Assembly (NCBI RefSeq): GCF_030816715.1
Contig: NZ_JAUSYH010000001.1
Location: 62,001-126,000 of the forward strand
Length of the DNA: 64,000 nt
DNA from: Streptomyces achromogenes
GTDB taxonomy: Bacteria > Actinomycetota > Actinomycetes > Streptomycetales > Streptomycetaceae
Direction of reading: 5' to 3'
Part shown: positions 7,406 to 34,648 of the stretch, piece by piece
How positions within the stretch are numbered: the first letter of the stretch is position 1
Layout of the letters: each line of letters begins with the position of its first letter
The notes under the pieces: model-generated
The model's database searches: none
What the model was told of the DNA's origin: nothing
What the model saw: only the letters and a program-made list of their open reading frames with translations
Program-made: the position numbers and the translations under genes

Positions 7406-8836
7406 GTGAATACCGACGAGCTGGAATGGGCCTTGATGAAGGCCGAACGCCGGGTACTGGAGATCCAGACCAAGCTGCACCGTTGGGCTGCCGATGATTC
7501 TCATCGCAGGTTCGACGACCTGTTCAACCTCGTGGCCGACCCTGCCTTCCTGTTGGTGGCGTGGGACCGTGTCCGGGGAAACAAGGGTGCCCGCACGGCC
7601 GGAGTAGACGGGAAGACCGCCCGCTCCATCGAAGCCGGGCAGGGAGTCGAGGCGTTTCTCGACAAGCTGCGGACCCAGCTCAGAGACCGCAGCTTCCATC
7701 CGGTTCCTGTCCGCGAGCGGATGATTCCCAAGGCGAACGGCAAGCTTCGTCGTCTCGGGATTCCGACCGTGGCGGACCGAGTGGTCCAGGCGTCCTTGAA
7801 ACTGGTGCTGGAGCCGGTATTCGAAGCGGATTTCCTCCCGTGTTCCTATGGGTTCCGCCCGAACCGCCGAGCTCACGATGCGATCGCCGAGACTCGCTAC
7901 CTCGCCAGCCACGGATACGAGTGGGTGGTGGAGGGCGACATCACGGCGTGCTTCGACGAGATCGCGCACCCGGCCCTCATGGAGCGGGTGCGGAATCGAA
8001 TCGGGGACAAACGGGTGTTGTCCTTGGTGAAGGCGTTCTTGAAGTCTGGGATCCTGTCCCGTGACGGAGCCTTCACGGACACACGCACCGGGACCCCGCA
8101 GGGCGGGATCCTGTCGCCGCTGCTGGCCAACATCGCACTCTCGGTCCTGGACGAGCACATCGCCCAGGGCCTCGGAGGCCCAGATGGCACCTCCGAGGAT
8201 CGGCGCAGGAGACGGCGCCGAGGATTGCCCAACTACCGGCTGGTCCGGTATGCGGACGACTTCCTCGTACTCGTCTTCGGGCGCCGAGATCATGCCGAGG
8301 AACTACGCGACGAGGTCGCAGAGGCATTGAAGCCAATGGGCCTTCGCCTGTCGGTGGAGAAGACAAAGATCACGCACATTGACGAGGGCCTTGATTTTCT
8401 CGGATGGCGCATCCAGCGTCACCGGAAACTTGGCACTGATCGGCAGTACATCTACACCTACCCGGCACGGAAATCAGTACGTTCCGTCACGGGCAAGGTG
8501 AAGGAACTGACCGGACGGCAGAACGTCGGCTTGTCGCTGGAGTCCTTGCTCCACCGACTGAACTCGGTGTTGCGAGGATGGTGCGCGTATTTCCGCCCCG
8601 GAGTTTCGAACGTCGCTTTCTGTTACCTCAGCCACTACGCGTGGATGAGGGTGACACGATGGATCCGACGCAAGCACCCCGGGATCACTTGGAAACAGCT
8701 CCGTCGACGCTATTACGGCGGCGGCTGGTGGCCCGTCACAAAGGAAGCGGAACTGTTCAACCCGGCAAAGGTAAGCACGACCAGATACCGATACCGGGGA
8801 AAACTCATTCCGGCTCCGTGGCCCACTACGGCATGA
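7406..8836 (+). CDS. ltrA: Group II intron reverse transcriptase/maturase
   Basis: 476 aa from a GTG with GGAGG about 10 nt upstream. Reverse transcriptase motifs in order: KANGKLRRLGIPTVADRVVQ (RT2), FLPCSYGFRPNRRAHDAI (RT3), VVEGDITACFDEIAH (RT4), GTPQGGILSPLLANIALS (RT4/5), VRYADDFLVLVFGRRDHAEE with the catalytic YADD (RT5), EKTKITHIDEGLDFLGWRI (RT7). The X/maturase domain follows (LLHRLNSVLRGWCAYFRPGVSN). No complete HNH motif is evident at the C-terminus, so this may be an endonuclease-minus form. The gene is intact and lies in intron domain IV. Confidence 0.95.
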   Translation: MNTDELEWALMKAERRVLEIQTKLHRWAADDSHRRFDDLFNLVADPAFLLVAWDRVRGNKGARTAGVDGKTARSIEAGQGVEAFLDKLRTQLRDRSFHPVPVRERMIPKANGKLRRLGIPTVADRVVQASLKLVLEPVFEADFLPCSYGFRPNRRAHDAIAETRYLASHGYEWVVEGDITACFDEIAHPALMERVRNRIGDKRVLSLVKAFLKSGILSRDGAFTDTRTGTPQGGILSPLLANIALSVLDEHIAQGLGGPDGTSEDRRRRRRRGLPNYRLVRYADDFLVLVFGRRDHAEELRDEVAEALKPMGLRLSVEKTKITHIDEGLDFLGWRIQRHRKLGTDRQYIYTYPARKSVRSVTGKVKELTGRQNVGLSLESLLHRLNSVLRGWCAYFRPGVSNVAFCYLSHYAWMRVTRWIRRKHPGITWKQLRRRYYGGGWWPVTKEAELFNPAKVSTTRYRYRGKLIPAPWPTTA

Positions 8837-9574: not shown

Positions 9575-10431
9575 TTGGATCACTCTGAGACTGGCGATCT
9601 GGGGGTGCGGGTGGCTCGGCCGAAGCCGTGGGAAGTCGACGACGAACTGTGGGCGGTGATCGAGCCGCTGCTGCCGAAGGTCGAGCGTCGGATCCGGCAT
9701 CCGGGTCGCAAGCGGCATCCGGACCGGCTGGTGTTCCAGGGCATCCTGTTCGTCCTGCACACCGGGATCTCCTGGGAACACCTGCCGCAGGAACTCGGCT
9801 TCGGCGCGGGCATGACCTGCTGGCGCCGCCTGGCCGAGTGGACCGAGGCCGGCGTCTGGCCCCGGTTGCACGAGGTCCTCCTCGCCGAACTCCGCGGCGC
9901 GAACGCCCTGGACCTCTCCCGGGCAGCGGTCGACGGCTCCCACATCCGCGCGTTAAAAGGGGGCCCAAGACCGGACGAAGTCCCGTCGACCGGGGCAGGA
10001 TGGGCAGCAAGCATCACCTGATCACCGACGCCACGGGCATTCCGCTCGCCGCGACGCTGACCGGCGGCAACCGCAACGACGTCACCCAGCTGATCCCGCT
10101 CCTCCAGGCCGTACCGCCCGTGCGGGGCAAGCGCGGCCGGCCCCGGCGCCGCCCGGATGTGGTGCTGGCCGACCGCGGCTACGACCATGACAAGTACCGC
10201 CGCCTGGTCTGGGACCTCGGCGTGAAGCCGCAGATCGCCCGCCGCGGGACCGAGCACGGCTCCGGCCTGGGCACCCAACGCTGGGTCGTCGAGCGAGCGT
10301 TCGCCCACCTGCACTGGTTCCGCCGCCTGCGCATCCGCTGGGAGATACGCGATGACATCCACGAAGCCTTCCTCAGCCTCGCTTGCAGCATCATCTGCTG
10401 GCGACGGCTGAAGAAGCTCCGGCCGCGTTAA
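9575..10431 (+). CDS. IS5-family transposase made by -1 frameshifting
   Basis: The first frame (TTG start at 9575; a later start is possible) gives the N-terminal helix-turn-helix part and DDE start: WEVDDELWAVIEPLLPK, then LSRAAVDGSHIRALKGG. The reading then moves back one base at ttaaaaggggg (about 9954-9964), a slippery run. It continues as RGPKTGRSPVDRGRMGSKHHL, VLADRGYDHDKYR (second Asp) and WVVERAFAHLHWFRRLRIRWE (Glu). This arrangement is standard for IS5 subgroups that use programmed -1 frameshifting, so I treat it as functional and not as a mutation. It ends at 10431, overlapping the stop of the convergent passenger gene. Confidence 0.85.
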
Positions 10432-11065: not shown

Positions 11066-11551
<486 letters not shown>

Positions 11552-12991
11552 GTGACGAACGAAGAGAACACGGAGCGGCGCACACCACGGCCACGGCCCG
11601 TCCCACGGCCACGGCCCGTCCGGCCTCCAGTCGTCGCCCCAGGCCCTCTTGGCGAACTCAAGTCACTGTTGTACGAGCTCTACGCACACGCCAGCGCGCC
11701 GGCTACGGACGAGATCTCGGACGAGATCAAACAGGACGACTTCCTGCCGGACGCGCCGAGCGGGGACACCGTCCGCAGGATCCTGTCGGAGCCCGCTCTT
11801 CCACGCCGGGCCGAAGCTGTCGTGTCCGTGGCCACCGTCCTGGCACGCAGAGCCGGGCGCGACGAACGGGCTGTGGTGAACAGCGTCCGGCAGCTTTGGG
11901 CGAGCGCTCTCACACGGGAGACGGGACACACTCCGGCCCCTCCCTCGCCCGAAGCGCCGGGTTCGTCGTCCGGTGGATCGCGACGGTTCTTCCACCACCT
12001 GCTCGACTACCACACCGAGAAGTTCGCGGGCCGCGACAGCGAGGTCAGCGCCATCCGCGACCACATCGACGGGCACGACCGCGGATACGTCTTCGTCGAC
12101 GGGCTTTCCGGGTACGGCAAGACGTCGTTGCTGGCCGTGCTGGTCCGGCAACAGCCCGGCTACCTTTACCACTTCATCAGTCAGCGCTACAAGACGGCTG
12201 GCAGCGCCTTCGACCCGACCCGGCTCGACGATCTGCTCTCCAACCTGTGCGAGCAACTCGACCCGCACCGTGCCGCCCCCATCGGCGGGCGCGCGTTGAC
12301 GGACCGGTTCCTCGAAGTGGTCGAGAGCGACCGGGAGAACCCGACCGTGCTGGTTCTGGACGCCATCGACGAGGTGGATGAGCACCCCAGCTTCCTGCGC
12401 GGTCTCCTCCCGCGGCGCCTGCCGAAGAATCTGTTCGTCCTTCTCTCGGCCCGGTCCCAGGGCGACCGGTCCTACCTCGAAGAAGTGGGCCTGACACCGG
12501 ACGGCATCGGTCTGCGGGTGACGCTCAGCGGCCTGGACACTGACGCCGTCCGGCAGCTGCTGTTGCACCACGCCGGGCCGGCCGGTGCCGCCCTCGGCCA
12601 GCGGCCCGGCTTCGTCGACGCCCTGCACGACGTCTCCGAGGGAGACCCGTTCTATCTGCGGTTCCTGGTCGAGGACGTGGAACAAGGCAGGCTCACCCCG
12701 CAGAACATCCGACGGACCCCGAACGGCCTGTACTCGTACCTCGACGAGCAGTTCGATCAGCTCCACCGCTCCGTCAACAGCGGTCTGCACGACAAGGTGC
12801 TCGGCATGATCCTGGAGGCGTACGGTCCTCTGCACCGCGACGACCTGCTCCGTATTTCTGGCCTGACCGGCGGGACGCTCGAGCAGGTGGTGCGTGACCT
12901 GCAGCGGTTCCTGTTGCGGACCGGCGAGCGCAGGCAGTCGTACACCTTCTGTCACAACCGGTTCAGGGAATACTTCCGGGAGAAGCGCTAG
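11552..12991 (+). CDS. STAND/NACHT-type ATPase, N-terminal half of a two-part system
   Basis: 479 aa. A Pro/Arg-rich start (residues 8-33) leads to a small helical domain (about 33-118, PSGDTVRRILSEPALPRRAE and VRQLWASA) like the degenerate HTH modules before STAND ATPases of streptomycetes. The NTPase begins at FAGRDSEVSAIRDHI. It has Walker A GLSGYGKTS with Lys190, Walker B TVLVLDAIDEVDE with Asp270, and a sensor-like NLFVLLSARSQGDRS. A winged-helix part ends at CHNRFREYFREKR. The frame stops at TAG (12989-12991). The next gene begins at the very next codon in the same frame with what looks like the following helical arm. STAND proteins are signal-responsive switches that usually carry sensor and effector parts on one chain, so this may be half of one larger protein. 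Confidence 0.85.
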   Translation: MTNEENTERRTPRPRPVPRPRPVRPPVVAPGPLGELKSLLYELYAHASAPATDEISDEIKQDDFLPDAPSGDTVRRILSEPALPRRAEAVVSVATVLARRAGRDERAVVNSVRQLWASALTRETGHTPAPPSPEAPGSSSGGSRRFFHHLLDYHTEKFAGRDSEVSAIRDHIDGHDRGYVFVDGLSGYGKTSLLAVLVRQQPGYLYHFISQRYKTAGSAFDPTRLDDLLSNLCEQLDPHRAAPIGGRALTDRFLEVVESDRENPTVLVLDAIDEVDEHPSFLRGLLPRRLPKNLFVLLSARSQGDRSYLEEVGLTPDGIGLRVTLSGLDTDAVRQLLLHHAGPAGAALGQRPGFVDALHDVSEGDPFYLRFLVEDVEQGRLTPQNIRRTPNGLYSYLDEQFDQLHRSVNSGLHDKVLGMILEAYGPLHRDDLLRISGLTGGTLEQVVRDLQRFLLRTGERRQSYTFCHNRFREYFREKR

Positions 12992-15900
12992 GTGCCGTCG
13001 TTCCGCGAGCGCGTCGCCGAAGGGATCGCGCAGGGCACGTACCGCAAGCAGTTGGCGGAGGACGCCCGGCAGTGGCGTTCGCACCGCAGCGACTACGCGC
13101 TCTCCACCGTGGTGCGCTATACCGTGGAGGACGACCTCGCCGACGAGGTGCACGAGGTCCTCACTGACGAGCAGTTCCGTGAGCTTCGCCTAGCACGGTT
13201 CGGTGTGCTCGCTCTGCGCGACGACCTCGACCTCGGCCTGGAGTACTTCAGCCAGGCCCGGCCCGACCTGCTGCGCTACGCCCGGCTGCTCTTCCGCCAG
13301 CGGTCGGCGGAGCGCGACGACGCGCACGCGTCCCTGCACCGGCGGCACTGCCAGGGCTTCGCCGACTTCCTCCAGCTGGACGTGCCCGCTGCCGACCGGC
13401 GCAAGATCGGCCTGGAGCAGGCCCTGCACCGGTTGTTCCCGATGCGGCTGACGGACGACGACTCTTCAGAGCCACCGGTCGACGTGGACCTCACCGGGTA
13501 CCACCTGGGTACGTGGTCCTGTTCGTGCGGGAGGCGGCAAGGGCACGCCGCCCGTTTCGACCACGCCTGCGACTGCGGAGCGATGTCCGGCAATGGCCGG
13601 CTGCCCGCACAGGGGCGCTGGTGTCACGGATGCGGAACCGCAGCCGCGTACGTCACCTGCGACCTGTGCGGAACCCGGGTGACGTTGAGCCTGTGGTGGC
13701 AGATCCAGAAAGGCGGCGTGCACCCCTCCGACTGCCGGGTCCCGCTCACCCTCGAGCTGCGGATCCGCCGGCCGGGGCAGCCGGCGGACCTCCAGTGTCT
13801 GGAGTTGATGCAGCTGCCGTTGATGCTGGGGCTGACCGAGCGGGACGACGAACTCGTCTTTGACCTGCCGGACATGCTGTGGGTCAGTGATATCCGGGAT
13901 CGGCACGGCCAGGACCGGCCGACCGGGCAACTCGTCGCCGTCGCCGATCACCCCCAGTACGACCGGCAGACCGACGTCGAACGGATCCTGCAAGCCGCCT
14001 TCCGGCGCGCCGTCACCGGCCGCAACCGCCCGGCCGGATCCGAGCTGCGGACCGTCATCGCCGCGCAGGCCGGAATCCGCCGCCCCGAGCGGCGTCGCCG
14101 GTACACCGACGGGTTCAGCGCAAGGTTCGCCCGCAGGGCGGGCTACGCCCTCGCCGCCGAGCGGCACGACAACGCTGGCCTCGCCCGCGGCGCCGACCTG
14201 TACCGGCCCTGTGTGGTGGCCGTGTCCCCGAACCTCCGGGGCGATGCGGCACTGGTCTCACTGGACCTGTCCAGGCCCGGCACCCTTTCCGGCTCGGGCC
14301 TGGACAACGTCGGCGTATCCCTACGTGTGACCCCGCTCGGGCCCGACGAGCTCACCGCCGAGCCGCCGCAGGTGAAGCCCGACCTGTGCGGGGCGCTCGC
14401 CTCGGACGGCATCGTGCTGCCCGGCGAGACAGTCGAGCCGGGTGATCTTCTGGTCGGTATCAGCACACCCCGCACCGAGGAGAGCTTGACCCAGGAGGAA
14501 CGGCTGCTGCGTGCGGTCTTCGGTGAGAAGTCCCCCGATCGCCGGGACGCGTCGTTCCGCTGGTCCGGCCGACACCCCGCGAGGGTGCTGAGTGTGCACA
14601 TCAGTACGGCGGCGTCCGAGCCCTTCGAGGTCGCCTGGCATCCGCAACGGGTGGTCCAGGAAGAGGTGTTGCGCCCCGACGAACGCGCCAGGATCAGCAT
14701 CAGCCTGGCGACGACGGACCCCCTGGAGACCGGCGACGTCCTGCACGGCCCGGACGGGTCCAGCGTGGTGGTGTGCGGCAGCCATGACGGCCACGGGACA
14801 GACGTACTCGTCGGCCCCGACCATCCCTGGGCGAGCGGAGAGCCGACCAGGACCGTCGGTGTCCGGCTCCGCCCCGACGAGCGCTCCCGAGCCGTCGTCC
14901 GCGCCCGGGCGACCGGCTCGTACTCCATGGTCACGCAGCTGCCGGTATGGACCGACGCAAGCGATCCGGGGCAACCGGTCCGGCTAACGGATCTGGCGTG
15001 GCTGTTGCGACACGGCGCGACCCGAACCGCCTTCGAGATCCATGTGTTCCGGAGTGACTTCGTCGACGGGCGCCTCGGCTTCTACCAGCTCCTGGTCGAG
15101 GGCGGGACCTCGTTCCGGGAGATCCCGACGCCGCCGTCCGAGCAAGCATCGGCGCTGGAGTCCGCACCGCTCGAGGCCGTCCGCAACTGGGGCCGCCTGC
15201 TGCGCGCCGCCTGCATCGAGCCCGTGTGGCACGGGGATCGGCTGTCGTTCCGGGCCATCGATGACGAGCAGGTCCTCGCCGCGTCCTTCGGCGAGGTGCG
15301 GAACGGTGACACAGTGGACCTGCGGACCCGGCTGCTGGTGCCAGCCGGCCTGGCCTGTCAGAGCGTCTTCGGACCGGTCCGCGACCACGAGTGCCGTTGC
15401 AGGAGGCTCCGGGGTGCACGTCACGCGGGTGAGGTCTGCCCAAAGTGCGGGGTGGAGGTGACGGACAGCAAGGTCCGGCGCCGACGCATGGGCCGCATCG
15501 AGCTGGCCGCGCCCATGGTTCATCCCTGGTACAAGGACCGTCTGAGTGATGCCCTCGGCCTTGACCGCGGGACACTGGCCGACATCATCCACGAACGGTG
15601 TCACGTCGTCAGGGACGACGACCGCGACGAGTTCGTCTTCGCGCCCGCGGGGGCGGAGCCCCGCCACGACGAGGACCGGCTGTGCACGGGGGCGGAGGCG
15701 GTGCGACTGATGTTCTCCCGGCGAGGGCAGGACCCTCCCCGGGGCGCACTGCTGCACAGACTTCCGGTGCTGCCTGCCGACCTGCGCCCGGTGATCGTCC
15801 ACGAGGGGCGCATACGCGGCAGCGCACTCAACAACCCGTACAGGCAGATCGTCTTCCGCAACTCCCGAGTTCGTCGGCTGATCACCCTCGAAACTCCGTC

Positions 15901-16645
15901 GCACATAATCAGTCATGAGCGGGCCCTGCTTCAGCAGGCCGTCGACGCCCTTCTCGATCCGGGCGAGGGCGGGGCGACGCTCGCCGACCTGACGACAATC
16001 CTCCCCGGTCGCAGCGGAGGTTTCCGAGAGCGGCTCTTCGAGCGTCCGGCGGATTTCAGCGCCTGTACCACGCTGGTCGCGGAGACGACCGGAGACCTGG
16101 ACGCAGCGCTGCTTCCCGACCGGATCGCCTGGACGCTCCTGGCGCCGGTCCTGATCGGAAAGCTGGTCGACACGGGGGACAGCCCGAACATCGCGCTCGC
16201 CCGGCAAGCCGTGCGCGACCGCACCCGACAGGCGTGGGCGCGGCTCCAGGCCCTCTGTCAGCACACGACAGTGCTGATCTCGGTGCCGGGAACCCGGTGG
16301 CCGCTGTTTGCCGTACGCGTCGGCCGTCTGACCGGCGACCTCTCCCTGAAGCTGGATCCGGGCCTGTTCGACCACCTCGGCTGGGACCGGCTCGGCGCTC
16401 CTGTCAGGATCTTCCCGCTGCTGACCGAGGAAGCCGCTACGGAGGCCCGAGGGGCGCTTCTCCCCAGCATGTTGCTCCACGACGGCGACACCGGTGGCAA
16501 CGAATCGACCGACCGGCCTGCTTCCTTGCTCGGCCTCGACCAGGAGCACCTTCCGAAGGAGATCGTGCGGATGATCGGGACCGGGGAGTCGGCTCACCTC
16601 GACCGTCTCGACCGGTTCCTGCTGTTTCCCGAGTGGGAGCATTGA
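12992..16645 (+). CDS. Catalytically dead RNA polymerase beta/beta'-like fusion protein
   Basis: 1217 aa, GTG start directly after the ATPase stop, with GGGAGAAG 6 nt upstream. Residues 1-150 are helical like a STAND arm. Residues 177-226 hold eight Cys in pairs (177/179, 193/195, 211/214, 223/226). Residues about 465-515 match RpoB: SDGIVLPGETVEPGDLLVG, then EERLLRAVFGEK. TGSYSMVTQLPVW (641-653) matches the RpoB C-terminal STGPYSLVTQQPL. Residues 790-850 match the RpoC start: FGPVRDHECRCRRLRGARH, CPKCGVEVTDSKVRRRRMG and IELAAPMVHPWY, with the Cys4 zinc site 801/803/816/819. LPVLPADLRP (924-933), NNPYRQIVFRNSRVRRL and GFRERLFERPADFSA follow in RpoC order. The RpoC NADFDGD block aligns without gaps to GWDRLGA (1130-1136), so only one Asp remains. 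The RpoB lysines of GDKxAGRHGNKG align to Val583 and Ser591. Polymerase activity is therefore not expected. Function is inferred only: RNAP mimicry or sensing. Confidence 0.9.
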   Translation: MPSFRERVAEGIAQGTYRKQLAEDARQWRSHRSDYALSTVVRYTVEDDLADEVHEVLTDEQFRELRLARFGVLALRDDLDLGLEYFSQARPDLLRYARLLFRQRSAERDDAHASLHRRHCQGFADFLQLDVPAADRRKIGLEQALHRLFPMRLTDDDSSEPPVDVDLTGYHLGTWSCSCGRRQGHAARFDHACDCGAMSGNGRLPAQGRWCHGCGTAAAYVTCDLCGTRVTLSLWWQIQKGGVHPSDCRVPLTLELRIRRPGQPADLQCLELMQLPLMLGLTERDDELVFDLPDMLWVSDIRDRHGQDRPTGQLVAVADHPQYDRQTDVERILQAAFRRAVTGRNRPAGSELRTVIAAQAGIRRPERRRRYTDGFSARFARRAGYALAAERHDNAGLARGADLYRPCVVAVSPNLRGDAALVSLDLSRPGTLSGSGLDNVGVSLRVTPLGPDELTAEPPQVKPDLCGALASDGIVLPGETVEPGDLLVGISTPRTEESLTQEERLLRAVFGEKSPDRRDASFRWSGRHPARVLSVHISTAASEPFEVAWHPQRVVQEEVLRPDERARISISLATTDPLETGDVLHGPDGSSVVVCGSHDGHGTDVLVGPDHPWASGEPTRTVGVRLRPDERSRAVVRARATGSYSMVTQLPVWTDASDPGQPVRLTDLAWLLRHGATRTAFEIHVFRSDFVDGRLGFYQLLVEGGTSFREIPTPPSEQASALESAPLEAVRNWGRLLRAACIEPVWHGDRLSFRAIDDEQVLAASFGEVRNGDTVDLRTRLLVPAGLACQSVFGPVRDHECRCRRLRGARHAGEVCPKCGVEVTDSKVRRRRMGRIELAAPMVHPWYKDRLSDALGLDRGTLADIIHERCHVVRDDDRDEFVFAPAGAEPRHDEDRLCTGAEAVRLMFSRRGQDPPRGALLHRLPVLPADLRPVIVHEGRIRGSALNNPYRQIVFRNSRVRRLITLETPSHIISHERALLQQAVDALLDPGEGGATLADLTTILPGRSGGFRERLFERPADFSACTTLVAETTGDLDAALLPDRIAWTLLAPVLIGKLVDTGDSPNIALARQAVRDRTRQAWARLQALCQHTTVLISVPGTRWPLFAVRVGRLTGDLSLKLDPGLFDHLGWDRLGAPVRIFPLLTEEAATEARGALLPSMLLHDGDTGGNESTDRPASLLGLDQEHLPKEIVRMIGTGESAHLDRLDRFLLFPEWEH

Positions 16646-16966
16646 CTCCGAGCGCGGGAGGGGATCATCAATCCGGCTGACCGCCCCTCACGGCACCTCG
16701 TCTCCAGGACGGACGGCAGGCGGACCGTCAGGACGACGGACTCCTCCTCCGCGTCCCAGAGCAGCACATAGTTCCATGCGAAGTCCCGAGTCCGTTGCAG
16801 GTCATGCCGGGTGCACGGGCGGACGCCAGAGGCCGGGTGCCCCGGTCTGTCGTCGTACGGGTGCTCGAGAGCCTGGGCGCGGTCGTGACGGAGCCCGGAA
16901 AGAATCTTGAGTGTTCTGTTAAGAAGGGGGGCACCTCGGGCCTATGAGTAGGCGAAGGCCTCTTCG
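16646..16966. other. Non-coding interval with a possible gene remnant
   Basis: About 320 bases. The minus strand has an open stretch with coding-like composition (TLKILSGLRHDRAQALEHPYDD and WNYVLLWDAEEESVVLTVRLPS) but no start codon, which suggests a decayed gene truncated by the IS6 insertion at 16967. I cannot name it. Confidence 0.35.
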
Positions 16967-17825
16967 GGCACTGTCACGTTGGCTGACCGGTGGGATGATC
17001 TTCTGGTTGATCAGCCTGGGAAGGGTCGTCCGTGGGGAGCGCGTCGCTGTCGTACAAGGGGCACCGGTACCCGGTCGAGGTCATCTCCCACTGTGTGTGG
17101 CTGTACCACCGCTTCCCGCTCAGCTTCCGCGAGGTCGAGGAGCTCATGCTCGAGCGCGGCGTGACGGTCTCCTACGAGACGATCCGCCGCTGGTGCGCCA
17201 AGTTCGGGCAGGCCTACGCAGGCGCGCTGCGCCGCCGACAGCCCCAGCCCAGGGACAAGTGGCACCTGGACGAGATCTTCATCAAGATCAATGGGGAACG
17301 GAAGTACCTGTGGCGGGCCGTCGACCAGGATGGCAACGTCCTGGACATCCTGGTGCAGAACCGGCGGGGCAAGGCCGCGGCCAGGCGTTTCTTCCGCAGA
17401 CTTTTGAAGAGGACCGGGGTGGTGCCGCGGGTCATCGTCACTGACAAGCTCCGCTCCTACGGCGCTGCCCGCCGCGAGGTCATGCCTGCGTCGAGCACCG
17501 CCAGTCGAAGTACCTGAACAACCGGGCGGAGAACAGCCACCAACCCACCAGGCGGCGGGAACGGGCGATGAAGGGCTTCCGCTCCGTGGGCGGAGCACAG
17601 CGGTTCCTCTCCGCGTTCAGCGGCATCTCGCCCCACTTCCGGCCCCGCCGCCACCTGATGCCCGCACACCACTACCGCGCCGAGATGACCGTCCGCTTCG
17701 CAATCTGGGAGCAGATCACCGGCGTCGCCGGCCTTGCCACCGCGGCCTGAGCACAGGCCCAGCTCCCAAGCCCACCCTGTCCCGACGCGCCGTCAGGCAG
17801 TCACAGCCAACAACGTGACAACGCC
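16967..17825 (+). mobile_element. IS6-family insertion sequence
   Basis: Bounded by ggcactgtcacgttgg (16967-16982) and caacgtgacaacgcc (17811-17825), which are imperfect inverted repeats. About 860 bp, the usual size for an IS6 element, with one transposase gene inside. Confidence 0.7.
17032..17750 (+). pseudogene. IS6-family transposase, frameshifted
   Basis: First part: YPVEVISHCVWLYHRFPLSF, RGVTVSYETIRRWCAKFG, WHLDEIFIKINGERKYLWRAVDQDG (first Asp) and VIVTDKLRSYGAA (second Asp). The frame breaks at about 17485 (gtcatgcctgcgtcg). The continuation, VEHRQSKYLNNRAENSHQPT with RRRERAMKGFRSVGGAQRF, carries the catalytic Glu and is in another frame to 17750. One base appears to be missing. With it restored the protein would be normal length (about 240 aa). 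Confidence 0.85.
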
Positions 17826-18083
17826 GTCCACGCAGCTACCACCTGGGAACCCCGCTTTGCGCGAAGCACCGGCCGATGCTCCTGTCGACACCCCCTGGGT
17901 GGGACAGCCCTTCCGACCGAAGTGCTCTCGAATCGAGCCGGTTCCGCCTCGGTCCAGCAGGGTGAGGCGAACCTGAGGACGCCGGTACCGCCGGCGCCAC
18001 CGTCACAGTAGGCCGCCGGGTCCGTGGAGTTGAGGAAGACCGCGTTCGGGTCGACGTCGATGCCCTGGTACGGCGCTCCGGCA
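17826..18083 (-). pseudogene. Unidentified gene fragment next to IstB debris
   Basis: The minus strand reads GAPYQGIDVDPNAVFLNSTD and PAAYCDGGAGGTGVLRF, which looks like a piece of a real secreted or globular protein. It has no proper start or end: it runs into the IstB fragment on one side and the IS6 end on the other. Family not recognised. Confidence 0.25.
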
Positions 18084-18398
18084 AGGGACAAGCGCATGCG
18101 CGAACTCACTCGCCCCGACCTGCTCATCCTCGACGACTTCGCCATGCGTCAGATGAGCGCACCGCAGGCCGACGACCTCTACGAACTCGTCTCCGAACGG
18201 CAGGGCCGGTCCCTGATCATCACCAGCAACCGGGCACCCAGCGACTGGTATCCCCTCGCCCCCAACCCGGTCGTCGCCGAGTCGCTGCTGGACCGGCTGA
18301 TCAACGCCAGCCACCAGGTCATCATGAACGGCCCCAGTTACCGCCCCAACAAGCGGCCCCGGAACACGACCGGCTCCTCCGATCCGCCGCCGTGGTAG
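18084..18398 (+). pseudogene. istB: IstB-like ATPase, C-terminal fragment (IS21 family)
   Basis: Contains RMRELTRPDLLILDDFAMRQ (Walker B), DLYELVSERQGRSLIITSNR (sensor) and ESLLDRLINASHQVIMNGPS with the usual basic tail YRPNKRP. The Walker A half and all of IstA are missing, so this is the last third of an IS21 helper gene. Fragments of an IS21 IstA start occur at about 32.5 kb, but nothing shows they belong together. Confidence 0.85.
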
Positions 18399-18490
18399 CC
18401 GCATACCAGCCTCCGCCGGATCCGCGGGTCCCGCCCGAACGGAACGCGGTGGCATGATCCTGTCCGGTCACGACTCAACTGGAGAGGGTC

Positions 18491-18793
18491 ATGCTGCATC
18501 TACTGACACTGCACTACACGGCCACGGAACAAGAGGCGGATCCCTTCATCCGCGACCACGTCGCGTATCTGGAACGACACCACGAGGACGGCACCTTCCT
18601 GGTCTCTGGACAGACCATCCCCACCTCGATCGGCGGCGTGATCATCGCGCATGGCGTTGATCGCCCGGCCATCGAACGGATCGTGGCGCAGGACCCCTTC
18701 GTCCTCAACAACGTTGCCGAGTACACCATCACGACCATTGCCCCTGGGCGAGTGCACCCCGGCTTGAGCCCCATCCTGACTATGGACCGTTGA
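18491..18793 (+). CDS. YciI family protein
   Basis: 100 aa with GGAGAGG before the ATG. It has the ferredoxin-like YCII signature: HYTATEQEADPFIRDHVAYL, GTFLVSGQTIPTSIGGVII and VAQDPFVLNNVAEYTITTI. The conserved His-Asp pair of the first helix (RDH) is present. Members are small dimeric enzymes or binding proteins of uncertain role. The gene converges with the SnoaL-like gene and their ends overlap by 14 bases. Confidence 0.85.
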   Translation: MLHLLTLHYTATEQEADPFIRDHVAYLERHHEDGTFLVSGQTIPTSIGGVIIAHGVDRPAIERIVAQDPFVLNNVAEYTITTIAPGRVHPGLSPILTMDR

Positions 18794-19202
18794 CATTCCC
18801 CGGCCCCATCGCCCATTCCGCCCACACTCCCAGAGAAGGCTGAGCGCTGAGCTCATCGGTCCGGGGCGGCAGAGTGAAGAAAGGCCCCCACAGCTCGGCG
18901 ATGCGCCCGTCCCGCACCCGGAAGATCTCCATCATCGAGGGGAGAGGGAGAGCCTGTCCCTCAGCTTCCGCCGGGATGCCATGCAGGCTCGTACGGACTG
19001 CGGCTCTGTCTGCCTCCACGAGCATGTCCTCGACGATGACCTGCATGTCCGGGAACGAGGCATGGAGCCCGCTCCACGCCTTCACAACGCTGTCGACGCC
19101 AACGGTCCCCAACGGGTGGCTCACGAAGTCGGCGGAGAAGATCGTCGTTGCCGCGCTGAGGTCACGGGCGTTGAACGCCTCGTCAGCGTTCTCGAAGAGC
19201 AC
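18780..19202 (-). CDS. SnoaL-like/NTF2-fold protein
   Basis: 140 aa. It starts MLFENADEAFNARDLSAATT and continues FSADFVSHPLGTVGVDSVVK, AWSGLHASFPDMQVIVEDML and MMEIFRVRDGRIAELWGPF. This is the cone-shaped NTF2 fold of the SnoaL/ester-cyclase group. The His and Asp positions of the pocket are conserved, but the substrate is unknown. Complete and of normal length. Confidence 0.85.
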   Translation of the reverse strand: MLFENADEAFNARDLSAATTIFSADFVSHPLGTVGVDSVVKAWSGLHASFPDMQVIVEDMLVEADRAAVRTSLHGIPAEAEGQALPLPSMMEIFRVRDGRIAELWGPFFTLPPRTDELSAQPSLGVWAEWAMGPGNVNGP

Positions 19203-19442
19203 ACAGCCAACGACGACGTACCCGCCGAGACGGAACGCCGTCTCGCTGACATCGCGGCCTCAAATGACTCCGTGGGCGCGCCGGCTCGAGCTTGGTCAGT
19301 CAGAAGAGCCGAACGAGGCCGACATCAGCTTCAAGAAACTCAGCGTGGTCATCCGGCCGCCCCAGGACCGTCTCCCTCAGGAACGCGTTGGCTGAACCGC
19401 TCCGGGTCTGATGGAGGCTCGATTCCCTGAGAGGATCGAGTC

Positions 19443-19769
19443 ATGGCACGTCCGTCCCCCTACCCTGCTGAGCTTCGTGAGCGTGCGGTGCGCATGGTCA
19501 CGGAGATCCGTCCGAACTACCCGACCGAGTGGGCCGCGATGAAGGCTGTCGCGGCGAAGCTGGGGATCGGCGCGGCGGAGACGGTGCGGACCTGGGTCCG
19601 CAAAGCTGAGGTAGACGCCGGTCAGCGACCCGGTGTCACGTCCGAGGAAGCTGCTGAGATCAAGCGGCTGCGGGCCGAGAATGCCGAGCTGCGGCGGGCG
19701 AACGAGATCTTGAAGGCGGCGTCGGCTTTCTTCGCGGCCGAGCTCGACCGGCCGTCGAAACGCTCGTAG
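19443..19769 (+). CDS. IS3-family transposase OrfA
   Basis: 108 aa: MARPSPYPAELRERAVRMV is the start of the helix-turn-helix domain and EIKRLRAENAELRRANEILK the leucine-zipper heptads. The C-terminus ends in the region where -1 frameshifting into OrfB normally happens. OrfB is broken, so OrfA is probably an inactive remnant of the element. Confidence 0.9.
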   Translation: MARPSPYPAELRERAVRMVTEIRPNYPTEWAAMKAVAAKLGIGAAETVRTWVRKAEVDAGQRPGVTSEEAAEIKRLRAENAELRRANEILKAASAFFAAELDRPSKRS

Positions 19770-20356
19770 CGTTCATCGACGAGTACCGCCAGGTGTTCGG
19801 AGTCGAGCCGATCTGCCGTGTCCTGTCCGGTCACGGGCTCAAGATCGTAACGAGCACCTACTACGCCGCCAAGAACCGCACCCCCAGCACCCGGGCCGTC
19901 CGTGACGCCGAGCTGAAGACGCACATCAGCGTCTACGGGGTGTGGAAGGTCTGGCGGCAGCTGCACCGCGAAGGCATACCGGTGGCTCGCTGCACAGTCG
20001 CCCGGCTGATGCGCGACCTCGGCCTCGAGGGCGCCCGACGCGGGAAGAAGATCCGCACCACCATCCGGGACGACGGCCAGGAGCGGGCTGCTGACCTGCT
20101 CAGGCGCGACTTCACCGCGTCTGGTCCGAACGAGCGTTGGGTGGCCGACTTCACCTATGTCGCCACCTGGTCCGGGATCGTCTACGTCGCGTTCGTCGTG
20201 GATGTGTTCTCCCGGGCGATCGTCGGCTGGTCCGCCTCTACCAACAAGCGGGCCAAGCTCGTCCTGGACGCCCTCGACATGGCACTGTAGCGCCGGGATC
20301 GTGCCGGAACTCCCGCTGGTCCAGGGCTGGTTCATCATTCGGATGCGGGCAGCCAG

Positions 20357-21840
20357 GGTGGATTCAACTGGTCGTCGCAACACCCTGATCTCGGAGGTGT
20401 GCGACGTGGCTACGGCGGACTGGAGTTTGAAGACCAGCCGGAGGGGCGGCGTCGGCAGTGGCGCGCTGACCGTGCGTTGCGGCCGGCGATGCGTTCGCCG
20501 GGGCGGCCTGATCCGTCTCGGGTCGTGCAGCGCCAGTTCTGGCGACTGATCGCCACGGGGGTCACGACGGTGGAGGCGTCGTTGGCGGTCGGCGTGTCGT
20601 GGCCGGTGGGTGCGAGGTGGTTTCGTCACGCTGGCGGCATGCCGATCTCGTTGGCCGAGCCCACGGGCCGGTACCTCACGTTCGAAGAGCGCGAGGAGAT
20701 CGCGATCCTCAGGGCGATGAGCAAGGGCGTGCGCGAGATCGCCCGCGCCCTGGGGCGTGACCCCGGAACGATCTCTCGCGAACTGCGCCGCAACGCCGCC
20801 ACGCGCAGCGGCAAGCAGGAGTACCGCGCGACGGTCGCCCAGTGGAAAGCACAGCAGGCCGCCAAGCGGCCGAAGACCGCGAAGCTCACAGGCAACGACA
20901 GGTTGCGTGAGTACGTGCAGGACCGGCTCGCCGACAGCATCCGCCGCCCCGACAACACGATCGTCCCCGGACCCAGGACGCCCGCATGGAAGGGGCTGAA
21001 CAAGCCACACCGGCAGGACAGACGATGGGCGACGGCATGGAGCCCGGAGCAGATCTCGCACCGTCTCCATGCCGACTTCCCCGATGATGAGTCCATGCGC
21101 ATCAGCCACGAAGCGATCTACCAGGCGCTGTTCATCGAGGGCCGTGGCGCGCTCAAGCGGGAGCTGGTCACGTGTCTGCGTACCGGCCGGGCGCTGCGGA
21201 CTCCCCGTGCACGGTCGCAGAACAAACCGCAGGGGCATGTCACCGCGGACGTCGTCCTCAGCGAACGCCCCGCCGAGGCCACGGACCGCGCGGTCCCCGG
21301 ACACTGGGAAGGCGATTTGATCATCGGGACGGGCCGCTCCGCGATCGGCACGCTCGTCGAGCGCAGCAGCCGCTCCACGCTCCTGGTGCACCTGCCCCGG
21401 CTCGAGGGCTGGGGCGAGAAGCCGCCCGTGAAGAACGGCCCCTCGCTCGGGGGCTATGGCGCGATCGCGATGAACACAGCGCTCACCACGTCGATGACGC
21501 AATTGCCTGAGCAGCTACGCAAAACCCTCACCTGGGACCGCGGGAAGGAACTCTCCGCTCATGCCCAGTTCGCCCTCGATACCGGGACGAAGGTGTTCTT
21601 CGCCGATCCGCACTCGCCCCGGCAACGACCGACGAACGAGAACACGAACGGGCTGCTGCGCCAGTACTTCCCGAAGGGCACCGATCTCTCCCGCTGGTCG
21701 TTCACGGACTCGAAGCCGTCGCCATGGCGATCAACAACCGGCCCCGCAAAGTCCTGGGTTGGCGGACGCCGACCGAGGTCTTCGAAGAACAGCTACGCTC
21801 GCTGCAACAGCCCGGTGTTGCAACGACTGGTTGAACTCGC
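20357..21840 (+). mobile_element. IS30-family insertion sequence
   Basis: Left end GGTGGATTCAACTGGTCGTC and right end (reverse complement GCGAGTTCAACCAGTCGTTG), both leading into GCAACACC, form imperfect inverted repeats of about 27 bp. CCAG occurs on both sides (20353-20356 and 21841-21844), consistent with a short target duplication inside IS3 orfB. Length 1484 bp. Confidence 0.82.
20399..21834 (+). pseudogene. IS30-family transposase with a late frameshift
   Basis: The helix-turn-helix LTFEEREEIAILRAMSKGVR and EIARALGRDPGTISRELRRN, then AWSPEQISHRLHADFPDDES, VPGHWEGDLIIG (first Asp), LTWDRGKELSAHAQFALDTG (second Asp) and TNENTNGLLRQYFPKGTDLS (Glu) are all present. At about 21712 one base appears lost (gactcgaag where the family frame needs an extra base). 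The true tail EAVAMAINNRPRKVLGWRTP with PTEVFEEQL is therefore off-frame, ending at 21834. The shifted frame instead runs on into the IS3 OrfB C-terminus and gives an accidental 583-codon open frame. Confidence 0.82.
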
Positions 21841-22199
21841 CCAGTACACGTCGTTCGCGTTCACCGCTCATCTCCTCGAGGCCGGCATCGATGCTTCGAT
21901 CGGCACCGTCGGCGACGCCCTGGACAACGCGCTCATGGAGTCCCAGATCGGCCTCTACAAGACGGAGTTGATCAAGCCCCGTCGGCCCTGGCACGGCCTG
22001 GCCGACGTCGAACTCGCCACCGCGGAATGGGTCGACTGGTTCAACAACCAGCGCCTCCACTCCGCGATCGGAGACGTCCCGCCACGCGAACACGAGACCA
22101 ACCACTACGCTCAACACCAGCCCCAACCGGTGGCTGGAGTCAACGCATAGAGCCTCCACCGATCCCGGAGCGGTTCAATGTCCTTCATCGGGCGGCAGG

Positions 22200-29971: not shown

Positions 29972-32245
29972 ATGTCCAACTCTAATCCGCTCAAAGCTGC
30001 CGCTGCGAAGCTGACCGAGGCTTTGAGCGACGGCGGTCCCGCCGAGGGTGTTCCCGGCGCTCCCTCCCCCGAACCTGTGGCGCTGGAGGAGGCCACCGAA
30101 CCGCGTGAGCCGCTGCCGCCGAAGTCCGACCAGGGCGCCCCTGAAACGGTCAGCCCAACGGGCCAGCCGACCGGCGCGGAGCCCGCCCGCAAGGCCCAAA
30201 GCGGCGCCTACCTGACCACCGCGCAAGGGACCCGGCTGTACGACACCGACCACTCACTCAAGGTGGGGCCCCGGGGGCCCGTGCTATTGCAGGATCACCA
30301 CCTACGCGAAAAGATCATGCACTTCGATCACGAGCGCATCCCCGAGCGTGTGGTCCATGCCCGCGGCTCCGCGGCTCACGGCGTCTTCCAGGCGTACGGC
30401 ACCGCAGAGAACGTCACGCGCGCGGCGTTTCTGCGCAAGGGCACCGAGACCCCCGTCTTCGTCCGGTTCTCCACCGTGCTCGGCTCCCGCGGCTCCGCCG
30501 ACACGGTGCGTGACACCCGTGGGTTCGCCACCAAGTTCTACACGGAGGAGGGGGTCTTCGACCTCGTCGGCAACAACATTCCGGTCTTCTTCATCCAGGA
30601 CGCCATCAAGTTCCCCGACGTCATCCACGCGGGGAAACCGCACCCGGACCGAGAGATCCCGCAGGCGCAGAGCGCCCACGACACCTTCTGGGACTTCGTC
30701 TCGCTGCACACCGAAGCCCAGCACCACACCATGTGGAACATGTCCGACCGGGGCATCCCACGCTCTTACCGGACCATGGAGGGCTTCGGCGTCCACACGT
30801 TCCGCCTCGTCGACGCGGCGGGCGGCACGACGCTGGTGAAGTTCCACTGGAAGCCGAAGCTCGGGGTGCACTCCCAGGTGTGGGAGGAAGCCCAGATCGC
30901 AGGCGGCGTCGACCCCGACTTCCACCGCCGCGACCTCGCCGACGCGATCGAAGCCGGTGCCTACCCGCAGTGGGAGCTGGGCATCCAGACCTTCCCGGAC
31001 ACTCCGGAGCAGACCTTCGAGGGCATCGACCTGCTCGACCCGACCAAGATCGTCCCCGAAGAGCTAGCCCCAGTCCAGCCGATCGGCCTGCTCACGCTCA
31101 ACCGCAACCCCAGCAACTTCTTCGCTGAGACAGAGCAGGTCGCCTTCCACGTGGGGCACTTGGTGCCGGGTATCGATGTCACCGATGACCCGCTGCTGGC
31201 GGGGCGGCTCTTCTCCTACCTGGACACCCAGATCACACGTCTGGCAGGACCCAACTTCAACCAGATCCCGATCAACCGACCGCACGCGCCCGTCAACGAC
31301 ATGCTGCGCGATGGCTTCCACCAGCAGGCCGTACACACCGGCGTAGCACCCTATAAGCCGAACTCGCTGGACGGAGGCTGCCCGTTCTTCGCCGGAGCCG
31401 ACACGGGCGCCTTCGTCGAGTCACCCGTCGAGGTACCGGCCAGCCGCAAAAGCCGCGAAGCCCCCGCCAGCTTCGCCGACCACTTCAGCCAGCCACGGCT
31501 GTTCTGGCTGAGCATGTCCCCGGTCGAACGCGAGCACATCATCGCCGCCTACACCTTCGAACTCGGCAAGTGCTGGAGCAACACCATCAAGGAACGACAG
31601 CTGAAGGCGCTGGCCAACATCGACGCCGAGCTGTGCGCCCGGGTCGCACAGGGCCTCGGCCTGCCCACCCCAGAGGCCAGCCAGCCGCTCGCCGACGTGC
31701 AGCCGAGCCCCGCGCTGTCCCAGATCGGCCAGGAGTGGCCTCCGGACGGCCGCATTATCGGCATCATCACCGACGGGGCTGCGGACCCTGAGGGCGTGCG
31801 CGCACTGCGCCAGACCGTCCTTGACTCGCATATGGTCCCCTTGGTCATCGCACCCGCCGGCGGGAAAGTCGGCACAGGCGCCGAGGCGATCACCGTCCAA
31901 CGGACCTTCGCCACCGCCCGCTCGGTCGAGTTCGACGCCCTCGTCCTTGCCGGCGTTCCCGCCCCGGGCGGCGACTCCTACGGCGCCCGAGACGCCAAGG
32001 CCGTAGAGCCGGGACAGAGGCAGACGGGGCTCGACCCCCGCCTGCTGTTGCTGGCCTCCGAAGCGTTCCGGCACGCCAAGGCAATCGGCGGCTGGGCGGG
32101 TGCAGAAGCCGTCCTGGAAGCGGCCGGGGTACCCGCAAGTGCCCCCGGAGTGGTACTCGCCGACAGCGGCGAAGCGGTACTGACCGAAATCATCCCGCTG
32201 CTGGCACGGCACCGGGTCTGGGACCGCTTCCCCACCACCGTCTGA
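29972..32245 (+). CDS. katE: Large-subunit catalase (HPII type)
   Basis: 757 aa with GGAGGAA before the ATG. A disordered N-terminal 75 residues precede the catalase core: [20 protein letters not shown] with catalytic His129, [20 protein letters not shown] with Asn201, and [13 protein letters not shown] with the haem-ligand Tyr416. The C-terminal flavodoxin-like domain typical of clade 2 catalases is present (about 595-750: [35 protein letters not shown]). It converts hydrogen peroxide to water and oxygen in the cytoplasm. A terminator follows at 32261, so it is monocistronic. Confidence 0.95.
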
Positions 32246-34210: not shown

Positions 34211-34648
34211 AAGTCCTCCTTGCGCAAAAAGGGACCAATTACCGTATATCCCCACCTCGGCGACTGAAACGAACTACCGCCGGTTCCACCAGGCGCGCGG
34301 CCGAGGCCCACGGACAGGCCCCTCGCCGGTGCCGGCGCAGCACCATGCGGGCATGGCCACCGAGAGCTGGGGCAGACGGGCGCGTGTATGACGCACGCGA
34401 AGAGCGATGACCAGGGTGGCTCCCGATGCTCATGGCACACCCGGCCGCACCGTCGCACTGCGCAAGTTCGGCTTGCGCGCACATGCCTTCATCGTGCTGG
34501 CGGCCCCCCTTCCGGCGCCACGCCTGGCGGGCGGAACGGGGTGCGCCGACGCGGCGGGGATGTCGTCGGACGTCGGCTGGACGAAGTGATGACCGTTACT
34601 TGCCGATGGTTTTGCGTCCATGCGCCGCAGCACGGGAAGACGGCTCAC

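Follow-up and report, generated by a model that had tools for sequence, protein, structure and literature searches.

Two adjacent genes in Streptomyces achromogenes (contig NZ_JAUSYH010000001.1, positions 62,001 to 126,000 of the forward strand, a stretch of 64,000 nucleotides referred to here as the window) can be described with little doubt, judging by their sequence, as a STAND nucleoside triphosphatase (NTPase) followed by a catalytically dead mimic of the beta and beta' subunits of RNA polymerase (RNAP) that continues the NTPase arm. What the sequence shows is that the genes are paired, that the arm runs on into gene 2, and that the mimic has lost its catalytic residues while retaining the flap, zipper/zinc domain, lid and clamp helices. 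It is proposed that the two genes together encode a split immune receptor in which the mimic acts as a decoy sensor for phage proteins that bind RNAP, a mechanism that, taken as a whole, has about an even chance of being correct. The features concerned, in window coordinates, are the following.

11552..12991, + strand: gene 1, 479-residue STAND (NACHT/AAA_16) NTPase (Pfam above cut-off: AAA_16 E 2.6e-12, NACHT E 1.6e-9)
12101..12124, + strand: gene 1 Walker A, GLSGYGKT (residues 184-191), by pattern
12347..12373, + strand: gene 1 Walker B, VLVLDAIDE (residues 266-274), by pattern
12989..12994, + strand: junction, where the TAG stop of gene 1 abuts the GTG start of gene 2 in the same frame, from the sequence
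12992..16645, + strand: gene 2, 1217-residue catalytically dead beta/beta' RNAP mimic, GTG start (open reading frame (ORF) with profile and PDB searches)
12992..13276, + strand: helical arm (gene 2 residues 1-95), continuation of the gene 1 STAND receptor, from the P0064 alignment
13349..13510, + strand: beta N-terminus-like stretch (residues 120-173), profile against PDB, best E 7.8e-5
13520..13669, + strand: eight-cysteine putative double zinc site (residues 177-226; C177, C179, C193, C195, C211, C214, C223, C226)
14291..14716, + strand: beta flap domain (residues 434-575), from structure comparison and hhalign
14489..14530, + strand: beta flap-tip helix TQEERLLRAVFGEK (residues 500-513), 12 of 14 residues identical to host RpoB
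14720..14776, + strand: former beta catalytic-lysine loop (residues 577-595), with V and S at the K1065 and K1073 positions
14900..15097, + strand: beta C-terminal region from the STGPYS block onward (residues 637-702), from the alignment to RpoB
15284..15532, + strand: beta' zipper and zinc-binding domain (residues 765-847), 52% identical to host RpoC
15767..15958, + strand: beta' lid and clamp helices (residues 926-989), 45% and 48% identity
16019..16075, + strand: beta' switch 2 (residues 1010-1028), 32% identity
16379..16414, + strand: dead beta' active-site loop (residues 1130-1141) at the place of NADFDGDQMAVH, triad positions D, L, A

The relationship of the gene 2 protein to RNAP was found in Pfam, PDB, NCBIfam and profile-profile searches, by which chance similarity is rejected. 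The profile search that a first-pass annotation of the sequence had suggested as a check returned both subunits, with RNA_pol_Rpb2_6 (E 1.4e-10) and RNA_pol_Rpb1_1 (E 1.4e-26) above their curated cut-offs. The best PDB sequence matches were beta' chains (E 7e-53), and NCBIfam models of beta/beta' fusions were matched at up to E 1.8e-66, yet far under their equivalog cut-offs. In profile-profile alignment with the host subunits, the protein covered RpoB 485-1158 (probability 99.7, with a shallow RpoB profile of 8 sequences in hhalign) and then RpoC 5-577 (probability 100, E 2.5e-72). Along the chain, the blocks succeed each other as beta flap, beta STGPYS, beta' zinc site, LPV(I/L)P, clamp helices and switch 2, and all four kinds of search agree with the annotation on the RpoB-then-RpoC order. 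It was also right in stating that the protein is not a copy of the host genes: rpoB-rpoC proper lies at about 5.22 Mb, and the matched pieces share just 33-44% identity with the gene 2 protein. A recent rpoBC duplicate or pseudogene is rejected by this identity, the family-wide conservation and the ratio of nonsynonymous to synonymous substitution rates (dN/dS) given below.

Because the RpoC match stops at about residue 577 (605 at a laxer setting) of 1299 and the mimic itself ends at residue 1217, the bridge helix and trigger loop, which we take to lie beyond RpoC residue 577-605, are absent, as the annotation had held. The beta' active-site barrel is present in the fold, with its catalytic residues gone. 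The annotation erred on two points. It had reported the RpoB N-terminal lobes as missing. A profile of the N-terminal part alone found RpoB N-termini in 13 of the 14 PDB matches listed at E <= 10 (E 7.8e-5 to 0.64, with two below 0.001; the matched entries are mutually related). Among the 50 structural alignments listed, four start at RpoB 15-50 and are loose (386-401 aligned residues, root-mean-square deviation (rmsd) 6.0-6.2), while the tighter ones to RpoB start at about 82-124. From these profile matches and structural alignments it follows that the beta part has been condensed to roughly 630 residues and not cut, its N-terminus not being absent. The annotation had further assigned the GEKAxxVRD block to the hybrid-binding region. 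Structure comparison identifies this block as the beta flap domain, tip helix included: residues 334-476 of the model, equivalent to 433-575 of the protein, cover 130 of 130 residues of the Thermus thermophilus flap domain 3woe_A (rmsd 2.5), and 132 residues match 3tbi_B (rmsd 2.4). According to their PDB titles, the flap structures matched include those solved with T4 gp33 and P23-45 gp39; the VIA structure comparison was a second look at the matches of Foldseek itself and covers only families among those.

Conservation was counted over 28 aligned family rows, near-copies included (one of them, database protein P0001, shares 96% identity with the protein of the window). The rows exclude P0015 (700 aa, with a different end), the short P0027 and P0028, and the cut-short copy at locus L011; the copies at loci L007 and L008 are the proteins P0007 and P0010 and were not counted again. 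The beta' catalytic Asp triad (NADFDGD) is intact in none of the rows, the middle Asp being L, V or I throughout, and at the positions of K1065 and K1073 (E. coli numbering), the catalytic lysines of beta, a Lys is found in 0 and 1 of the 28 rows, respectively. The four beta' zinc cysteines are present in 28/28 rows. The extra cysteines mentioned in the annotation form the eight-cysteine N-terminal site, complete in 27/28 rows (P0025 has one C to F), and all twelve cysteines of both putative zinc sites are likewise kept in 27/28; to our knowledge, beta has no feature like the eight-cysteine site.

The degree of identity to host RpoC differs markedly between elements. It is highest in the zipper/zinc domain (52%), clamp helices (48%) and lid (45%), intermediate in switch 2 (32%), the post-loop stretch (30%) and the rudder (29%), and then falls through the clamp body (24%, with 78 of 212 positions alignable) and dock (23%) to the catalytic loop (17%; family mean 13%) and the barrel before it (15%). 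With respect to host RpoB, identity reaches 86% in the flap-tip helix (family mean 77%) and 67% in the STGPYS block, with 18-41% elsewhere; the 12/14 identical residues of the helix compare with 72/230 across the remaining aligned beta part (p 7e-5). Residues invariant in RpoC (the same in 90% or more of 29 sequences) are retained at 60/103 positions in the zipper/zinc domain, lid and clamp helices, which form the docking face, versus 22/83 in switch 2, dock, barrel and catalytic loop (Fisher p 1.6e-5). When all ten segments are counted the figures are 71/131 versus 27/96 (p 1.3e-4), in both cases with segments drawn when the alignment was already in view and with neighbouring residues that are non-independent. 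By these counts, the docking face of the mimic appears better conserved than its catalytic core.

The annotation had treated the gene 2 product as a stand-alone protein. Its description as a beta/beta' hybrid distinct from rpoBC stands, whereas the protein does not stand alone, being paired with the previously unmentioned NTPase gene at 11552-12991. With an NTPase domain and Walker A and B motifs, gene 1 is a STAND/NACHT NTPase. Its N-terminus aligns with those of relatives bearing a helix-turn-helix (HTH) domain (HTH_31, E 1e-8 in the L016 NTPase and 0.0023, below cut-off, in that of L008) and is thus HTH-like by alignment; in Pfam it has no HTH match of its own. The search of actinobacterial genomes for architecture and neighbourhood that the annotation had recommended brought out a rare family with the NTPase gene directly upstream of the mimic gene in 6/6 loci with a readable 5' side (the window, L015, L008, L016, L011 and L007, the last showing only the 3' end of the NTPase gene). 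In these six loci the NTPase gene ends -17 to +3 bases from the mimic start, and the two frames differ in three and agree in three. Because the frames differ in 3/6 junctions, the sequences are read as a coupled two-gene operon in which the TAG of the window would be an ordinary stop, and a single gene broken by that TAG is rejected.

The two genes have also diverged together (r 0.97; five loci, 10 non-independent pairs), and dN/dS, measured on the single locus pair of window and L015, is ~0.38 and ~0.36, which indicates that both are constrained. The DNA block common to these two loci (window 11090-16967, 92% identical) consists of the pair, flanked by ~0.46 kb upstream and ~0.32 kb downstream. 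The match to L008 (11967-16631, 75%) leaves outside the N-terminal ~138 residues of gene 1, and the N-terminal module thus seems to differ in L008, an exchange of the kind expected for an output module. No natural one-chain fusion of NTPase and mimic was found among the 7994 candidates sharing most words, with lengths of ~930-2970 aa. Neither the rest of its own genome (E <= 1e-8) nor a further 149 genomes from the genus (E <= 1e-12) showed a relative of the gene 1 NTPase, which suggests that orphan NTPase copies are not common, these 149 genomes not being known mimic carriers.

Gene 2 starts as a continuation of the NTPase receptor arm, in agreement with the STAND-like helical arm of the first-pass annotation. 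The evidence is an alignment with P0064, which runs from the gene 1 NTPase across the junction to gene 2 residue ~95 with 145/452 identical residues (32%); the gene 2 arm alone matches P0064 at E 1e-5 (single comparison). Since the arm continues the STAND receptor, the polymerase part occupies the place of the C-terminal sensor in the STAND plan. P0064, the nearest long STAND relative found, is a single chain in which a Trypsin_2 (trypsin-like) domain precedes a STAND NTPase; its long C-terminal part has no Pfam match, to an RNAP domain or otherwise, and is helical by eye. P0064 is itself a possible phage-sensing receptor.

The extent of the family was assessed with protein searches that scored ~8000 candidates with the most shared words. 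A search with the first 410 residues retrieved 25 related proteins, 36-97% identical over the searched part, and a profile search listed 61 proteins, of which 23 were already known, three were new (P0026-P0028) and 35 were true RpoC/RpoB by their Pfam domains; P0014 and P0017 were not among the matches listed. The family thus stands at 28 database proteins found, 25 of them 1189-1277 aa long, with named members from Streptomyces, Saccharothrix and Plantactinospora and one (P0010) from Frankia sp. CIT1. The N-terminal profile matched 2/394 genomes of the class and 3/392 of the genus (own genome in both) and 1/395 in the phylum around genome G215, while a search with the single N-terminal sequence found 1/199 genomes of the genus, the own genome. 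One of 72,556 plasmid records had a match, and none of 50,697 phage records did. The mimic family is rare and patchily distributed. A close viral source is rejected, since 34 viral-contig stretches matching a pattern encode no relative and the phage records gave no match; in a viral fold library, the named entries among the 50 matches listed are RNAP subunits, with a highest query-normalised TM-score of 0.30.

The decoy sensor reading rests on the kept surfaces, which are those used by phage transcription factors, and on the STAND plan, which has a C-terminal sensor. According to the respective papers, P7 binds the beta' N-terminal domain and the flap-tip helix (PMC5053324), Q contacts the zipper, lid, zinc domain, flap and beta C-terminus (PMC6606751), putRNA binds the zinc domain and flap tip (PMC9378689), and STAND receptors consist of effector, NTPase and C-terminal sensor (PMC12931631); inactive enzyme versions have been proposed as decoys in conflict systems of multicellular prokaryotes (PMC7159879). 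In the proposed mechanism, phage factors that bind RNAP (of the P7, Q, gp33 or gp39 kind, or phage sigma factors) would attach to the decoy in the way they attach to RNAP itself. This contact would shift the arm and release the NTPase into an ATP-bound oligomer, and the N-terminal modules thereby gathered (in two relatives, an HTH) would either recruit an effector or bind to DNA, this output probably being the weakest step of the mechanism. That a dead and condensed RNAP core traps phage hijackers at its flap and beta' N-terminal surfaces and in this way turns the phage takeover of transcription into an immune alarm, as a counterpart of the plant integrated-decoy receptor, is a tentative idea given slightly less than an even chance.

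Several observations weigh against the decoy sensor. The clamp-helix residues that we take to contact sigma vary across the family (R275 in 9/28 rows, R278 in 15, R281 in 24, E295 in 12 and A302 in 18), and the flap-tip motif is lost in one row (P0013). Between window and L015, the ratio of nonsynonymous to synonymous polymorphism (pN/pS) is 0.48 in the flap, 0.35 in the zipper, 0.19 in the arm and 0.64 in the dead barrel, the lowest value falling in neither the flap nor the zipper. The best-kept parts could hold the fold, as the cysteine sites would, instead of forming bait surfaces. No effector domain (nuclease, protease, Sir2) was found in gene 1 or gene 2 with Pfam, NCBIfam and PADLOC. When 649 ORFs of 60 aa or more outside the pair were compared all-against-all across the six loci (E <= 1e-8), there was no shared third gene beyond insertion-sequence genes and one weak RNA-polymerase-sigma-like-or-other pair in unrelated positions. 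Of the 10 cross-locus matches, three join the ~0.46 kb upstream region of window and L015 and one joins L015 4753-5313 to L007 8289-9779, the others being mostly transposase-like ORFs (by eye). No defence island was evident in a scan of chosen neighbours.

The pair could be a transcription regulator, in which the mimic holds host sigma or NusA-like factors through the flap tip and clamp helices and the HTH-bearing NTPase releases them or uses them at promoters, in the manner of an ATP-controlled anti-sigma factor or activator and not of immunity. The HTH is the only N-terminal domain recognised (in the L016 relative and weakly in L008), and sigma is known to dock at the flap tip and the clamp helices (PMC6606751). 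A regulator would nevertheless have to be reconciled with a rare and patchy distribution (the 3/392 genomes of the genus include the own one), with the variation of the sigma-contact residues and with the lack, among the neighbours compared, of a shared gene as candidate target, and it is considered unlikely. A guard of the host state is rated lower still: mimic and genuine polymerase would be competitors for some host factor or nucleic-acid structure, and infection or stress would shift the balance and so trigger the NTPase with no contact to a phage protein. This finds a parallel in bNACHT25, whose sensing requires the host DnaJ (PMC12169576), and the mimic keeps sites common to host and phage factors, but no direct evidence speaks for it and its predictions coincide with those of the decoy sensor at the level of sequence.

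RNAP-targeting drugs bind the clamp/switch region, which the mimic retains, and the named hosts are actinomycetes. It is conceivable, at roughly one chance in ten, that antibiotics from neighbouring actinomycetes are what is sensed, the drug binding the dead clamp/switch and switching the NTPase. Switch 2 is, however, among the less conserved parts (32%), and no shared resistance or efflux gene lies beside the pair. Finally, the abutting in-frame genes of the window might evoke an rpoBC fusion in decay or a gene interrupted by the in-frame TAG. This is highly improbable given 28 related proteins, 25 of them with 1189-1277 aa, junction frames that differ at 3/6 loci, a dN/dS of ~0.37 and twelve cysteines kept in 27/28 rows.

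Compared with known systems, the pair resembles AVAST (Avs) and other bacterial NACHT-STAND receptors in having a NACHT/AAA NTPase with Walker A and B and an arm after it, and it may follow the layout of STAND receptors, in which an effector, an NTPase and a C-terminal sensor succeed each other (PMC12931631). Unlike them, it is split over two genes, has no effector domain that could be found and holds a dead RNAP in the place of the sensor. Gene 1 matches Avs1b weakly (PADLOC E 6.7e-9, NCBIfam E 1.9e-6); the match is not full-length, extending over residues 167-380 only with 25.3 bits against a cut-off of 1500. P0064 is alike in the 32% identity that crosses the junction to gene 2 residue ~95, but is one polypeptide with an N-terminal protease and no RNAP domain in Pfam. 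Bacterial RNAP beta/beta', fused rpoBC included, shares with the mimic the fold, the beta-beta' order, the flap, zipper, zinc domain, lid and clamp helices and both barrels, while the mimic lacks the catalytic residues, bridge helix and trigger loop, has its beta condensed from 1171 to roughly 630 residues, and carries an N-terminal STAND arm and the extra eight-cysteine site.

In plant nucleotide-binding leucine-rich repeat receptors (NLRs) with integrated decoys, an inactive look-alike of the pathogen target is joined to a STAND receptor. The pair likewise joins a dead homologue of a pathogen target to a STAND receptor, with the differences that it is bacterial, that the decoy derives from a polymerase and resides in a separate gene, and that its decoy role is predicted. 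The EAD10/TPR/GreA-C/PIN conflict systems, predicted to act on RNAP (PMC8195603), are alike as bacterial conflict systems tied to RNAP by prediction; there, a GreA-like domain would bind the real polymerase, whereas the pair carries a polymerase copy itself. No earlier description of a dead polymerase paired with a STAND NTPase was met in the full-text literature searched (subscription papers and most preprints lie outside it), which accords with the first-pass annotation, whose author knew of no described family with this architecture.

As regards genomic location, the own genome is a single contig, and its first base is ~75 kb away from the pair. In G631, L015 (G631:C1:1-20000) covers the copy near one contig end; an inverted copy of the mimic stretch, with no difference in the 3,945 bases compared, is found near the other, each about 8 kb from its end, so that the G631 genome carries two mimic copies; in G621 (L016) it is ~27 kb from a contig end. 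These contig ends probably correspond to chromosome ends. The L011 pair belongs to Streptomyces sp. NBC_01483, in which it is carried by a linear plasmid of 1.56 Mb. There (13594-16918) the NTPase frame is open, whereas the ORF of the mimic is only 451 aa long and is immediately followed by a transposase-like ORF. The ~0.46 kb upstream of the pair, part of the 92% block (window 11090-11551; L015 5927-6381), is read as an upstream region, the + strand ORFs checked having low third-position GC, and is perhaps a promoter or a regulatory RNA.

Around the window pair, a group II intron reverse transcriptase/maturase (7406-8836, + strand; RVT_1 E 4e-35, GIIM E 1e-19) is encoded ~2.7 kb upstream, and insertion-sequence genes or fragments occur on both sides (9575-10021, 17032-17517, 18024-18398 and 19443-22150), with HTH_38 and integrase-core domains at 20399-22150 and the remaining pieces recognised by eye from translations. 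Two genes near the L016 pair (16180-19922, - strand) include one of 819 aa with a phage-integrase domain, which suggests a mobile region. In Frankia sp. CIT1 (L008 7512-7910, + strand), a small TIR-domain protein (PADLOC TIR, best E 6e-15) is encoded 1.7 kb downstream of the pair; the neighbour comparison showed no counterpart at the other five loci. Further along the window, 29972-32245 and 34388-36289 (+ strand) are two ordinary genes, for a long catalase that has a C-terminal domain and for a malic enzyme.

If the decoy mechanism is true, the pair would be a bacterial immune receptor baited with a dead copy of one of the most conserved enzymes of the cell, and the seizure of host transcription by phages would itself be sensed. 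Phage proteins that bind the beta flap and the beta' N-terminal part should then bind the mimic and trigger the NTPase, and the mimic could also serve to pull out unknown actinophage proteins that bind RNAP. Quite apart from immunity, it is unexpected to find multi-subunit RNA polymerase mimics that are catalytically dead and yet form a conserved family.

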